From the NCBI GenBank assembly GCA_025603075.1, contig MU626457.1:1-35845 (forward strand): 35,845 nt of DNA. The letters are read 5' to 3'. Below, piece after piece: positions 7,949 through 28,790 of this stretch. This DNA is from Neoconidiobolus thromboides FSU 785. Lineage: Eukaryota; Entomophthoromycota; Entomophthoromycetes; Entomophthorales; Neoconidiobolaceae. A program made the translations under genes and the position numbers. A model generated the notes under the pieces. It was not told the DNA's origin. It ran no database searches and saw nothing but the letters and a program-made list of their open reading frames with translations. Position 1 is the first letter of the stretch; each line of letters starts with the position of its first letter.

Positions 7949-10416
7949 ATAATTGCTTTAATATATTAATTAATTAATTAAGAAAATGTTATTAATTGAA
8001 TTTTCTTTATTAGGATAAATTTATAATGACTTTTTATTCCATTTATTTATTAGAGCTATTAATAAATTTTGGGTTTAAGTTATATTAATTATAGAATTAA
8101 CATTTTACTTGGGTAAAGCATTAATTAGTTCTGGTATATAGGTTAAGTTAGCTTACTATTGAAGACGAAGCTAGATTAAACTGCATTACCATGTATAACA
8201 TCAGGATTTTGTATTTAGTACTGCTTATGATTTATAATTAGCTTACAACTATTAAAGATATGATACAACTTATATGACCGTTGATTATCTAATCAAGAAT
8301 TTATGTTTTTAAATTAATTTATTATTCAAATGAGCTTTCTAAATTAATATTCAAGTTTCATCAATTTGAATATTAATTTATGATATAAGATAAATAGTAG
8401 TTCAGTTAAACCTGAGTTAAAAAATATTTTCTTATAAAGTAATATCATTTTTAGAGTATAATAGTTATATCTTAAGAAAGGATAGTGGTCTAATACGTAT
8501 GGTTTTATATTCAATGTTAATGTTCAAATTTATAGAAAATCTTTACATAGTATAATATTAGCGAAAGCTTTCACATGCAAAATCATTAATACTCTAGAAT
8601 TACAGATAATTTCCAAAACTTGGAATATTTCGCTATAATTGCTGCATACTTCACACTTTATTTACTTATTAGAATTTTAGAATATTTGTTTGTATCCTTG
8701 AAAGAGTTGGTAAATTCTCAAATGAGTCATTAACAAAAATAGCTATGTTTAATTATGAAAAAGAGAACAGGGGTCATTATACCCCCGAACATTTAATAAA
8801 GTTTAGTTTGGCTCTTGATTGATCAATAACTTACATAAGTAAGTTTAAGAACCCTGGTCTAATTTTAAATATTTTTCCAGCTTAGTCTCGATTTAATTTG
8901 AAAAAATTCAAAATGAGGGATAAAAAATGACTTTAAATATAAACTAATCTATTTAACAAATCAAACTAATATTAAAGTTCACGTTTATTGTAACAGTAGC
9001 TTAGTATACTACTTACTGTTTATAAATAAAATAACTCTAAATGCTATAAAAATTACCATTGGACTTCATTACAAATGATGATATGAGGCCCATTAGGCTT
9101 ATATCTATTATTTATTACATTTGAAATCACGGTAATTAAGGTTATTTACCTTTTATTGATTTATTAGTTTATATATCATTCTTATTTTTCAATAAATAAG
9201 TAATTACAAGAAATGGTGTTAGATAATAAATTTGTTTATTTTAATAATATTAATGCAAGTCAATGCGTTTATAACATTTTAATATATAATTGTTAGAAAG
9301 TAACCTATGTTAGCATATTGATTTGAGTTATTTAATTTGAATTTGATAAGAGATCTAGGTTGAAAACGTGAGAAATAAATCTAAGAATCTTATAACTGTA
9401 TATTTGTAAGTAACAAGACATTTATAATCTGGGGTCAAAAACTGCTTATAATTCAGAAAGATTTTTAAATCACTAATTCAAATCTAATCTTATATTATTA
9501 ATTTAATAGAATTTATTCTTTAAAAAAACTAGTAGGATTATTTTAATAATTATAAAACGACAATTGAATTGAAATAAAAAAACAGCAATAAATTAGATAA
9601 AGCTATTATTATTGATTTATTTGTTGATTATAATACTAATTTTATATACCAAAGATGTACGTCATTATTATAATAAAATTAACAAGGTTATAAAAGTATA
9701 GCTTGTTATTATTCTCATTGAGTATGAAACAGTTTTGTTTTTGACCTTTAAACTTCAGTCTCTTATAAATTGTTTTGAATTGTACTATAATGTCAAACAG
9801 CATTAACTTAATTCAGTATACATGTAGAACAGGGTCTATTTAATATTTCATTGTTCTCATTAGTGTTAAACTTACTCAATATTTACTAATGTATTAATAA
9901 TAAAGCTTAATTAATAAAGGCTAAGATGTGACAAGGGCTTATTTTATCATGATTCAAAAATATTATCACAGTTTACTCATTTAATAAATTATTTACTTAG
10001 ATATAGCTATAACTTGAAAACTATAATAGACAGACAAATCAAAATACTTTTTTCATAAACTTACACCAAGGTGCCATCTAGACTCAATTTCTTACCTGGT
10101 ATTGTTTTGGAGGAGATAATGAATTTTTCAAACAGTATTTGTTTAAGATTGTGGATAGAATAGTCAAATATATTATTTATTCACTTTATAATAACTATGT
10201 ATGATTTGAATTTGACCAAAAGAGGTTCATTATATAAAACGGATTATTAATGAGACATGAAGGTAGACTGTACCACTATCGAGTACTTGAACTATTATCC
10301 AAATGTGTAATTTGTACATCATAATATACTTGATAATGACAACAGTGATGATGGTACCAAAATAAATGCTAATTTTTCAAATTTATCAAAGCTAAGTATC
10401 TTCAGTTAATTATAAA

Positions 10417-17124: not shown

Positions 17125-17406
17125 GGAACAGTGTTCCTTCCAAAGATTACAATAGATCTTAACAAGGATCTATTGTGGGTCATCGGATGCTTAGTTTTCA
17201 ACCAGCAATGATCCAACCTCAGTAGGTACTTCATAGGTCTGGATTTACCCGTGCACAAGGATAAAGCTTATCGGATGTCAAATTGGGACTATTTATAGTC
17301 CATTTGAAACATTGGGATTTTTAATTAGTGGGATTCTGAAACCTTTTCAAACTTTTTAAGTAATAGTTGATTGGCCAATGATGAAGTTGGGATCTCATTA
17401 TGAGAT
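17125..17406. other. Cluster of perfect hairpins upstream of MDM34
   Basis: Within 280 bp there are four perfect inverted repeats: GGAACA/TGTTCC (17125-17137), ACAATAGATC/GATCTATTGT with an 8-base loop (17149-17176), GGACTAT/ATAGTCC (17286-17301) and ATCTCAT/ATGAGAT (17392-17406). There is also TTGGCCAA at about 17371. ATCGGATG occurs twice between them. The stretch 17150-17300 is clearly GC-richer than its surroundings and does not read as protein. It could be a structured non-coding RNA, the MDM34 5' leader or promoter, or the remnant of an unknown element. Confidence 0.4.
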
Positions 17407-18890: not shown

Positions 18891-19153
18891 AATTAAGAGT
18901 TAAATTGAGTAATTGATTTCATTTCTATTTTTAAAGCTTTTAAAAGTTGTTTTTATGTTGTATCATTTTATTTTAGATTAAATAAAATTTATTGTCTTTA
19001 ACATTTATTTAATTTCTATTATTTCACACTTTTTTAAGTATTTTGCTTTTACAATATTGGATTGAATTAAATAATCCAACAAAACGATAATGAAATAAGC
19101 ATAATAATATGATAGTATAAATATAATAAATAATAATTAAAATTTTGTATAAT

Positions 19154-21048
19154 TTAATAACGTTCTTTAAATAAAGAAGGTTTCCAATCAATAGGATGAG
19201 ATTCTGGAGTAGCTTGATCATCTTCCTATATAAAATAAAATAAAATAAAATAAAATAAAATAAAATAAATAAATAGAACCCATCAATTTCATTAATATTA
19301 TTAGAATTTACCTTCCAAATTTTAATAGTTTTATCTGCTTCCCCAGTAATAAATCTTAAACCTGTTTTATCAAAAGAAGAACTAAAGATACCCGCTTCGG
19401 AATCTAAAGATCCAGGTTGAGGTAAAGATTCCACTGTTTGAAAATTATATCCACTTTTCCAATCCCAAAATTTTAAACTACCATTATCGCCTAAATAAAA
19501 ATACATTATATATTATGTTACATTTTACATTATTTAAACGTACCACCAGTAACCATTACATTATCCTGATTAATTGAAAGAGAATTGATAATAGCATCAT
19601 GACCCGAATAGTTTTGAATAAATTTACCTTCAGGACATTTAAATTGTTTAATGTTATCCGGAGAAGCCGATGCAAAAGAAAATTCTCTTGGATGTAAATC
19701 AATAGCTCGAACTGCTTTTTTATGATGTGTAAGTGTATGTAAAGTTTTACCCGCCGCTAAATCATATAATTTGACGGTCGCATCCATAGATCCAGTAATA
19801 ATTTGTGGATCCGCTTCTTGACATTTAACTGTTGGTATAGTACCACGATGACTGGTTAATGTATGAATACATTGTTTAGTTCGCATATCCCATACCCTTG
19901 CAGTAGAATCTCTACCCGCTGTTACAAGCACATCTAATACAGGATGTATGTCTAAGGCATATACAGCAGATAAATGGCCATGATAATGTCGAATCACTTT
20001 GTTATATTCTAAATCCCAACATTTCACCATTTTATCTTCACCACAAGAAAATAAATAAGGATGACGAGAGGATACACCTAAACCTCTTACAGTACTTATG
20101 TGGCCAGTTAATGATAATTTTAATGTTCCAGACGCTAAATCCCAAATCTATTTATTTATCAAATAATAAATAACATTGCTTAATACTAAAATGAAATAAA
20201 ATGATTACTTTTATTGTTCTATCACCAGAACCAGTAGCAAACCATTTATTGCCAGGTTCAACAGCAATGGATCTTACCCAACCTAAATGACCTGATATTA
20301 CCTAAAATTGAAATTAGCATAATTGATATAAATTAAAATAGGTTATCTATTATTCTTACTCTCATAAGTTTCCAAGGAGCATGCCATTCTGGTTTAACTC
20401 GATCAATTTCCCGACGTTTAATTAAAGCGCCCCCTTCACCAGTACCAAATATACTGGAAGTATTACTTTTTTTATTTAATAAAGTTAACACCCCTGCTGA
20501 AGCATCCATTTGTGTACTTCAAAATAAAAATTAATAACATAGTTTGATATAATAAAATGGTATTACCCTTGATTGATGGATAATTGATTTAATGCATCGT
20601 TTGTCACACACTCATTTTCTATTGATAAATCTTCATCTTCAACTGGATATAATGAGAATAAAAATAAATTAATGATGCAATTTAATAACTAATTAGCTTA
20701 CCTGCTACTTTATCTTGATCTACTTTATTTTGTTGTTTAGTTAAAGATTTTGGTAACTGTTTTAGGTTATGATATTCATCTTTTATTTTTACGGATAATT
20801 TTATTTTTTGACTAAATATTTCAAAATAAAATCATTTAAAAAAGTATAATAATTTCAATCAAATTTATTTACCTTGCTGGTATATCTTCTAACTTGGTAT
20901 CTATCACTTGTTTATTTTCAGGAAATAAAGCTAATGCTCTTTTTTTACTATTTTCTAATAATAATTTTATATGTTGTTGAGGTTCTATTGAGTCTCCTTT
21001 TATCTCCTTTTCATTTGCATTCACTTGATTTTCCAATTCACTTGCCAT
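19154..21048 (-). CDS. PRP46: Pre-mRNA splicing factor Prp46/PLRG1 (WD40 repeats)
   Basis: Eight exons on the minus strand: 21048-20873, 20811-20702, 20642-20567, 20516-20360, 20301-20209, 20147-19544, 19490-19312 and 19225-19154, all with GT..AG introns and consistent phases, giving about 488 aa. The first ~170 residues are charged and low in conservation. WD40 repeats follow from [16 protein letters not shown], including [59 protein letters not shown] and [17 protein letters not shown]. The ending [19 protein letters not shown] matches the family's C-terminus. The start is the ATG at 21046-21048; an in-frame TTG upstream is not needed. The protein acts in the nucleus in the Prp19-associated (NTC/Cdc5L) complex that activates the spliceosome. 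It is divergent from the prefoldin gene, 165 bp away, so the two may share a promoter. Intron 7 carries a TAAAA microsatellite. Confidence 0.93.
19230..19276. repeat. (TAAAA)n microsatellite inside PRP46 intron 7
   Basis: About eight copies of a 5-bp TAAAA unit, ending in TAAA repeats, fill half of the 86-bp intron at 19226-19311. Length variation here would alter the intron without touching the coding sequence. Confidence 0.9.
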
Positions 21049-21213: not shown

Positions 21214-21991
21214 ATGGCAACACAAGATAAAAATTCAGAGATGATAGATTTGGCTTCTCTACCACAACAACAATTGGAGCAAGTTAGAGAACAATTAAGA
21301 GAAGTAAAACGAAACATAACATTAATTTGAAACTGGATTAAAAAATTATAAATATTTAGGAAATTTCTCATTTTTCTACTTCATTTAATAAATTAAAACA
21401 AGCTCAAGTTACATTTTTAGAATGTAAAACAAATTTGAATGAAATCAATGAAGGGAATAAAGGTAATTATATAAAAAAATAAGTATAATTGAATATCAAT
21501 TCTTAATTTTAATCTGTATTTAGATAACCAAATCTTAGTACCACTTACAAGTTCAATATCCTTTTTTTATAAATAATAATACTAACATGAAACATATAAT
21601 GATAATTTATTATTAATCTTTAACCTATTAACACATTTATGTACCTGGTCAATTAAGAGATGTTCAAAAAGTTATTGTGGACGTTGGTACCGGTTATTAT
21701 GTTGAAAAGGTAATTTCATTATTTTTATTTCTATTTAAGTTTATTAAAAATGTTGATCCAAATTAGTCAATATCTTCGGCTAAAACTTATTATGATAAAA
21801 AAGTCAAAGAGATACAAGCTAATTTAACTACTTTACAAGATACTATTGCTAAAAAAAGAAATAATCTTAATGGTAAATATTTAGATTTGTTGTATTATAT
21901 AATGTTTTAATATCTTCTTTTATATTTAGTCTTAGAAGATATTTTAGTTTATAAATCCAATCAAGCTTTAAAAGCAAGCGCTAAAAAATAA
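21214..21991 (+). CDS. GIM5: Prefoldin subunit 5 (Gim5), with a U12-type AT-AC intron
   Basis: Six exons: 21214-21303, 21360-21462, 21524-21555, 21635-21709, 21767-21872 and 21930-21991, giving about 155 aa, the usual length. N- and C-terminal helices ([35 protein letters not shown]) flank the conserved core ILVPLTSS, then [24 protein letters not shown]. Prefoldin is a six-subunit cytosolic chaperone that hands unfolded actin and tubulin to the chaperonin CCT. Introns 1, 2, 4 and 5 are GT..AG. Intron 3 (21556-21634) has no usable GT..AG solution: it starts ATATCCTTT and ends AC, and removing it joins PLTSS to IYVPG in frame exactly where the family is conserved. This is a minor-spliceosome intron. 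The gene is divergent from PRP46. The assignment to subunit 5 is firm. Confidence 0.93.
21556..21634 (+). other. U12-type AT-AC intron of the prefoldin 5 gene
   Basis: The 79-bp intron begins ATATCCTTTTT, identical to the U12 AT-AC donor consensus, and ends AAC AC. A candidate U12 branch site TCTTTAAC (21617-21624) matches 7 of the 9 positions of TTCCTTAAC, with its last A 11 bases from the 3' end, inside the expected spacing. There is no AG between the donor and the resumed reading frame, so a U2-type solution is not available. Confidence 0.88.
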
Positions 21992-22381: not shown

Positions 22382-22454
22382 TGCTCCGTATAGGGCTTGA
22401 ACCTATGACCTTAGCGTTATTAGCACCACGCTCTGCCAACTGAGCTAACGGAGC
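22382..22454 (-). tRNA. tRNA-Ile(AAT): tRNA-Ile (anticodon AAT)
   Basis: A full cloverleaf can be drawn on the minus strand: 7-bp acceptor stem GCTCCGT/ACGGAGC; D-arm GCTC..GAGC; anticodon stem TGGTG/CGCTA with loop CTAATAA, so the anticodon is AAT (inosine-modified in eukaryotes, reading AUU/AUC/AUA); 5-base variable loop; T-arm ATAGG/CCTAT with loop TTCAAGC; discriminator base A. There is no intron and CCA is not encoded, as expected for a eukaryotic nuclear tRNA gene. The A box (TAGCTCAGTTGG) and B box (GGTTCAAGCCC) are present. Confidence 0.96.
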
Positions 22455-28334: not shown

Positions 28335-28790
28335 TTAGTCTCTCATTCCTCCCTCACTTTCCTCTCTTCCCCTACCACCACATTTTGAAAAACAATGCAT
28401 TTTATTAAAAAACACCGTCGATAAACAATTATTCGTTTTATATCCTAAGCATCTATTCATTTTTTTACTAAAAAAATAAGCTATTGGTCCCTCTGACCTC
28501 ACTTTACAACCTGTTTGTAAGATCGGTTTTTCAGAACATAGTAATTGAGAATATCTACTTGGTGAAAAATACTGTTGATGTTGTTGATGTTGATGGGTAT
28601 GGGGAGATAAAGATGTGGAAGTTGGAAGTGATTGAGTGAATGTTGGAGATGAATGATAGACTTCATAGCCTTTTGTTTTTATATTTAAAATTTCCATAAC
28701 TGATCGGACTTGTGGTAAGTCATAATAGTATAAGGTAGTGTTATTTACAATAGCTAGTAATATAAATATAAAGAATAACTTTTTTAACAT
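28335..28790 (-). CDS. Secreted protein with a Kunitz/BPTI-like domain
   Basis: A single exon for 151 aa from the ATG at 28788-28790. Residues 1 to about 19 form a signal peptide (KKLFFIFILLAIV core). A low-complexity linker rich in Ser, Thr, His and Gln covers about 47-80. Exactly six cysteines follow, at 85, 95, 114, 122, 133 and 137, with spacing x9-x18-x7-x10-x3; the Kunitz pattern is x8-x15-x7-x12-x3. The aromatic pair YFF before the third cysteine, the seven-residue gap to the fourth and the closing C-x3-C-G-G fit the fold. The residue after Cys95, the P1 position, is Lys, which would suit a trypsin-like protease. It would be exported and could inhibit host or competitor proteases; that is inference. 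The loop between Cys95 and Cys114 is three residues longer than normal. A different six-Cys fold is the alternative. The tail after Cys137 is charged and Gly-rich. Confidence 0.65.
   Translation of the reverse strand: MLKKLFFIFILLAIVNNTTLYYYDLPQVRSVMEILNIKTKGYEVYHSSPTFTQSLPTSTSLSPHTHQHQQHQQYFSPSRYSQLLCSEKPILQTGCKVRSEGPIAYFFSKKMNRCLGYKTNNCLSTVFFNKMHCFSKCGGRGREESEGGMRD

Follow-up and report, generated by a model that had tools for sequence, protein, structure and literature searches.

The third intron of the prefoldin subunit 5 (PFDN5) gene in Neoconidiobolus thromboides FSU 785 (Entomophthoromycota, Entomophthorales), at 21556-21634, has AT-AC ends, and we put the probability that it is a U12-type intron removed by a retained minor spliceosome at about 95%. 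The gene lies in a window of 35,845 nt that is one entire contig of a draft genome of 23.1 Mb in 392 contigs. Its features, in window coordinates, are:

21214..21991 (+), gene for prefoldin subunit 5, PFDN5, split by five introns into six exons; coding sequence of 468 nt, 155 aa
21214-21303, 21360-21462, 21524-21555, 21635-21709, 21767-21872 and 21930-21991 (+), PFDN5 exons
21304..21359 (+), intron 1, GT-AG, 56 nt
21463..21523 (+), intron 2, GT-AG, 61 nt
21556..21634 (+), intron 3, assigned to the U12 type, AT-AC, 79 nt, phase 0, from the join test and an identical NCBI protein
21556..21568 (+), 5' splice site of intron 3, ATATCCTTTTTTT, with a T-run complementary to the 5' end of U11, AAAAAGGG
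21617..21624 (+), branch-site candidate of intron 3, TCTTTAAC, whose second A (21623) lies 11 nt before the end of the intron
21710..21766 (+), intron 4, GT-AG, 57 nt
21873..21929 (+), intron 5, GT-AG, 57 nt

An AT-AC intron in the PFDN5 gene

Two things show the boundaries of intron 3, namely the reading frame and a public protein of identical sequence. For the join test we used VPLTSS and YVPGQL as anchors, with the first intron base at 21553-21597, the last base no further than 21646 and a minimum intron length of 21 nt, which gave 134 in-frame, stop-free joins. None of the 134 had GT-AG or GC-AG ends, leaving no solution of either kind, and the original prediction that no GT..AG pair joins these flanks is thus upheld. 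Three joins had AT-AC ends, among which 21556/21634 was the only one to yield the uninterrupted motif LTSS-I-YVPG (product VPLTSSIYVPGQL); the other two added or deleted residues and were rejected. The coordinates, the donor ATATCCTTT and the terminal AC of the predicted in-frame AT..AC intron were all confirmed, as were the branch candidate 11 bases from its end and the GT..AG ends of the other four introns.

The spliced translation was letter-identical to an NCBI protein (P0001) named "Prefoldin alpha subunit [Neoconidiobolus thromboides FSU 785]", and the NCBI gene model contains the same 21556-21634 join. In a comparison with PDB, the product matched prefoldin 5 with an E-value of 2.5e-28 and was aligned without a gap over the junction (ltssMyvpg).

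U12-type branch sites have a consensus like TTCCTTRAY. The signals of intron 3 are those of a U12-type intron in that the donor ATATCCTTT at 21556 fits RTATCCTTT, the ends are AT..AC, one of the two accepted pairs (AT-AC or GT-AG), and TCTTTAAC is located 11 nt from the intron end, within the optimum of 11-13 nt given for the distance from branch site to 3' end (PMC3584512). The duplex of the donor with U11 was estimated to -6.1 kcal/mol. Pairing of TCTTTAAC with the GUAAGGA segment of U12 included one G-U wobble and was weaker than that of TCCTTAAC (-4.8 versus -6.3 kcal/mol), which counts against our interpretation.

To estimate the influence of chance, we generated 100 first-order Markov resamples of the window and searched both strands. 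The loose pattern ATATCCTT followed by TTRAC and AC occurred twice in the window (21556 on the plus strand and 27713 on the minus strand) versus 0.26 times per resample, and its GT..AG counterpart also twice (8692, plus, and 33744, minus) versus 0.09. The matches at 8692, 33744 and 27713 were rejected as U12-type introns, having no convincing exon join; the last of these is located within a stretch that is open when unspliced. The bare donor word ATATCCTTT occurred twice in this AT-rich window versus 1.45 times expected, and the word alone is therefore no evidence. What places the PFDN5 intron above chance is its position, at the one point where an intron is needed to keep the frame, together with the ten introns of the same design found elsewhere in the genome.

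Other features of the window include a gene for tRNA-Ile (AAT) at 22382-22454 (-) and a short open reading frame at 28335-28790 (-) whose start is signal-like and whose cysteine pattern, judged by eye, is Kunitz-like.

Sibling introns elsewhere in the genome

We searched the genome with the pattern ATATCCTT-N25-55-CTTAAC-N6-14-AC, using the reversed pattern as a control, and decided by eye which matches to keep. The search returned 17 matches versus 6 for the control. Ten of the 17 were judged to be introns because their flanks, once joined, read through in frame where a coding junction is plausible, while the other seven (L013, L018, L020, L022, L023, L025, L027) were dropped for want of a convincing exon join. 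Retention of the intron introduced an in-frame stop in all ten, stops being common in such AT-rich DNA. The GT..AG counterpart pattern, with a GTATCCTT start and an AG end, gave 7 matches versus 1 for the control, all seven of which were dropped without a convincing join (L032 is located within a long open frame). Equal patterns thus yielded 10 accepted AT-AC introns versus 0 GT-AG introns. The shares in human minor introns are 24% AT-AC and 69% GT-AG (PMC8280824); if these held here, ten AT-AC introns of ten would by our arithmetic be roughly a one-in-a-million draw. Since donor, branch and length are all set by the patterns, G-type minor introns of another form may exist.

Pfam searches with the ten joined peptides identified GTP_EFTU, MCM_OB, Clat_adaptor_s, Metallophos and IPK above the cut-off, and Abhydrolase_6 just under it (26.1 versus 26.3 bits). 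Four joined peptides (L017, L021, L024, L026) matched no Pfam family, their support being the open frame and the motif, and L026 had no match in PDB. Matches in PDB extended across the junction without a gap there for HBS1L (L012), PP5 (L016) and MCM9 (L014). The match to PPME1 (L019) was gap-free at the junction with gaps further along, that to AP-1 sigma (L015) was gap-free at the junction but weak (E = 0.0012), with four residues before it, and the IPK match of L028 started two residues past the junction. The AT-AC intron of L014 is located in a gene for an MCM9-like helicase; MCM9 is absent from many fungi.

Together with the PFDN5 intron, the ten siblings were 61-79 nt in length, and phase 0 was the commonest phase (6 of 11). 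A run of T extends their donors: T was present at positions +9 to +11 in all 11, at +12 in 10, at +13 in 9 and at +14 in 4, counts that are to be read in the light of siblings picked partly by eye. All seven introns with named relatives (L012, L014, L015, L016, L019, L028 and PFDN5) likewise had T at +9 to +11. The run spans a stretch that U11 can pair, since the U11 candidate described below starts with AAAAAGGGC.

Candidate machinery and a divergent U6atac

The search for snRNAs suggested with the original prediction, which had named a lack of any U12 or U6atac as a ground for giving it up, gave candidates for all four minor snRNAs. The U11 candidate (65.4 bits, Rfam cut-off 39, genome E-value 1.3e-10) and the U6atac candidate (33.6 bits, cut-off 33, E-value 1.2e-5) passed, while those for U4atac (40.9 bits, E-value 1.2e-4) and U12 (C12:151736; 34.7 bits, E-value 3.0e-4) were below their cut-offs of 53. 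The acceptance limit for snRNAs in a published survey was an E-value of at most 0.01 (PMC10639083). In 14 prokaryote control genomes no minor snRNA match exceeded the cut-off; weak matches at E ≤ 1 were obtained in 8 of the 14 for U6atac and in 1 of the 14 each for U4atac and U11, and U12 had none at E ≤ 0.001. The working segments AAAAAGGG of U11 and the branch-pairing GUAAGGA of U12 are kept, and a Sm-like AAUUUUU is present in both the U11 and the U4atac candidates. Among the proteins, two parts of a CENATAC/CCDC84 gene matched at 46.1 and 27.5 bits (cut-off 25.3) and zf-U11-48K weakly at 19.3 bits, below its cut-off of 21.1; the profile search for PDCD7 gave no match in the genome and none in the controls either. 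The snRNA candidates, the fitting U4atac/U6atac pair described below, the CENATAC gene and the ten further AT-AC introns support the claim that this organism has a minor spliceosome.

A major U4 snRNA gene (88.9 bits) is located at 17126-17262 (-) in the window, at a distance of about 4 kb from intron 3 of PFDN5, a nearness that is probably coincidental. Two WD40-type open frames at 19024-20030 (-) presumably resemble spliceosomal PLRG1/Prp46. Two U6 genes of equal score (L038 and L039, at G000:C12:162391 (+) and 172702 (-)) point in opposite directions, some 10 kb from each other, on the contig that also contains the U12 candidate, and two weaker U6-like matches below the cut-off (L040, L041) are located elsewhere.

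Two other accounts of the 79 nt in PFDN5 need to be weighed. They could be one of the rare AT-AC introns of the U2 type, which the major spliceosome removes; major introns can have such ends, with 85 AT-AC or related cases in one human analysis (PMC8280824), and the genome has major snRNAs, among them the U4 of the window and a canonical U6. We nevertheless regard this as highly improbable given a donor and a branch site 11 nt from the end that are both signals of the U12 type, candidates for the minor snRNAs and ten siblings of the same design. The segment could also be an artefact of assembly or annotation, that is, a frame-breaking error or a pseudogene. This is barely credible for six exons that form one open, conserved frame and an NCBI model with the same join, the more so with ten other genes of the same structure.

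Under the favoured interpretation, a U12-type intron and a retained minor spliceosome, the 5' AAAAAGG of U11 would pair with CCTTTTT of the donor and GUAAGGA of U12 with TCTTTAAC, leaving one branch A free. U4atac/U6atac would then arrive in the tri-snRNP, after which U6atac would take the place of U11 at the donor and build the catalytic core by pairing with U12. CENATAC may support the A-type intron of PFDN5. We infer from the sequences that the retained minor spliceosome is working, that its snRNAs are expressed and that intron 3 is actually spliced, with the steps in this order.

The U6atac candidate is divergent exactly where the donor should be read. In the alignment to Rfam, the consensus UAUGAAAGGAGAGAAGGUUAGCA is replaced by UACGAGUUGAGAGAUAAUUGGCA. 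The segment that usually pairs with donor positions +4 to +8 is GUUGA instead of AAGGA, such that three of the five positions can pair (U4-A, C5-G and a U8-G wobble) versus all five with the consensus letters, and RNAduplex gave -3.9 kcal/mol in an odd register versus -8.0 for the consensus. The catalytic triad is GGC instead of AGC, while the major U6 found in this genome has the canonical form and has kept AGC. The candidate (C1:41699-41843) is present in a single copy and was the only U6atac found in a search with 18 genome matches at E ≤ 1, a second-best E-value of 0.0074 and 46 of 1136 candidates scored.

U4atac and U6atac pair throughout, at all 13 positions of stem II and all 7 of stem I, and two of these 20 pairs are G-U. 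Stem II was estimated to -29.1 versus a shuffle mean of -11.8, and 1 of 2000 shuffles was as low. Pairs 60 (U-A to C-G), 63 (C-G to U-A) and 8 (U-A to C-G), two in stem I and one in stem II, differ from the Rfam consensus in both strands. At 4, 13 and 14 the consensus letters do not pair, whereas the N. thromboides letters do. In U12, C5 faces a G of U6atac where the consensus has A, and C4 has become U, making a G-U pair with U6atac. These changes in the three snRNAs are leads and do not amount to a covariation test because consensus letters stand in for real sequences. With partners crossed, stem II was -18.7 for the own U4atac with the consensus U6atac and -25.1 for the reverse, the consensus pair reaching -31.6 versus -29.1 for the own pair; stem I was -10.8 for the own pair, -7.1 in both crosses and -13.6 for the consensus pair. 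The best duplex of the U12 5' end with U6atac was -3.5, in another register, versus -5.3 for the consensus letters, and here the energy does not favour the idea of co-evolution.

Tentatively, and with somewhat less than even confidence, we suggest that the minor spliceosome of Neoconidiobolus has been rewired and reduced to a machine for AT-AC introns alone. U11 would read the extended donor ATATCCTTTTT, whereas U6atac would have given up most of the AAGGA helix and exchanged AGC for GGC, made workable by the matching changes in U4atac (U-A to C-G) and U12 (C5 facing G). U6atac might hold the donor by a shorter helix of U4-A, C5-G, two mismatches and a wobble, or alternatively sit on it in a shifted register, GAG-A-GAUA with UAUCCUU; more of the recognition would be carried by U11, the donor T-run and perhaps CENATAC. 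It is unlikely, if by no means negligibly so, that the C1 locus is instead a decayed or mis-scored copy and that a true, canonical U6atac falls into a gap of the assembly or did not get past the search filter. The score is barely over the cut-off, the model is noisy, as seen from its 18 genome matches, the next at 0.0074, and the weak matches in 8 of 14 controls, only 46 of the 1136 candidates were scored, and the draft has 392 contigs. The U4atac-pairing segment of U6atac is also bound as strongly by unrelated stretches, the reverse test being unspecific (best unrelated stretch -35.8 versus -29.3 for U4atac). Decay is argued against by the fitting changes in the partners U4atac and U12, and likewise by the single copy and by a full pairing with three double-sided changes and three new pairs. 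In the forward test, moreover, none of the 8296 stretches compared bound the 5' end of U4atac better than this locus. A search for 16-mers with at most two mismatches to the canonical U6atac core gave six genome matches, versus 4 for a reversed-pattern control, and all six were rejected as true U6atac, having no snRNA match and poorer stem II pairing with U4atac. Two loci at two mismatches from the core, L043 and L045, have GGAGAGATTGTTAGCA in common and similar flanks, with no snRNA match.

Minor splicing in early-diverging fungi and beyond

Most well-studied fungi have lost this second splicing machine, which the insect-associated N. thromboides appears to use on a chaperone gene. The results extend the minor spliceosome to a genome of the Entomophthorales with a seemingly small, AT-AC-only set of introns. 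If the changes in U6atac are real and the RNA works, they provide a natural experiment on how much U6atac-donor pairing is needed once U11 binds strongly, and test whether the first position of the AGC triad can change alongside its partner strands. Should the rewired reading be true, this would be a natural change in a catalytic triad taken as fixed; in Stentor, the triad of the major U6 and its triplex partners are called invariantly conserved (PMC9505925). In our limited literature search we came upon no account of a U6atac with a GGC triad and, judged by title, none of minor introns in Conidiobolus or the Entomophthorales. The main text of PMC10639083 has no mention of Conidiobolus or Entomophthor-, while the species may be included in its supplementary tables.

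The PFDN5 intron itself is an ordinary AT-AC intron of the U12 type, and minor spliceosomes are already known from early-diverging fungi. Basidiobolus meristosporus and Rhizophagus irregularis, with 249 and 205 minor introns, are early-diverging fungi like N. thromboides, and Rhizophagus is reported to have all four minor snRNAs (PMC10639083); in N. thromboides, by contrast, every minor intron with support has AT-AC ends, and the U6atac candidate is divergent. Rhizopus oryzae and Phycomyces blakesleeanus resemble it in having few U12 introns with the snRNAs present, but these two Mucorales have both types, Phycomyces with 8-9 AT-AC and 8-12 GT-AG introns depending on the method (PMC2846911), whereas the supported set here is AT-AC only. 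Human CENATAC promotes the splicing of AT-AN minor introns (PMC8280824), and N. thromboides likewise has a CENATAC gene and AT-AC minor introns, which may depend on it. High shares of phase 0 are found in a few species, all of which except Blastocystis have few minor introns (PMC10639083). Blastocystis resembles N. thromboides in strongly favouring AT-AC ends (77%) and in having many of its minor introns in phase 0 (49%); it is, however, a stramenopile with 253 such introns of a mean length below 42 bp (PMC10639083), as compared with 61-79 nt and 6 of 11 in phase 0 in N. thromboides.
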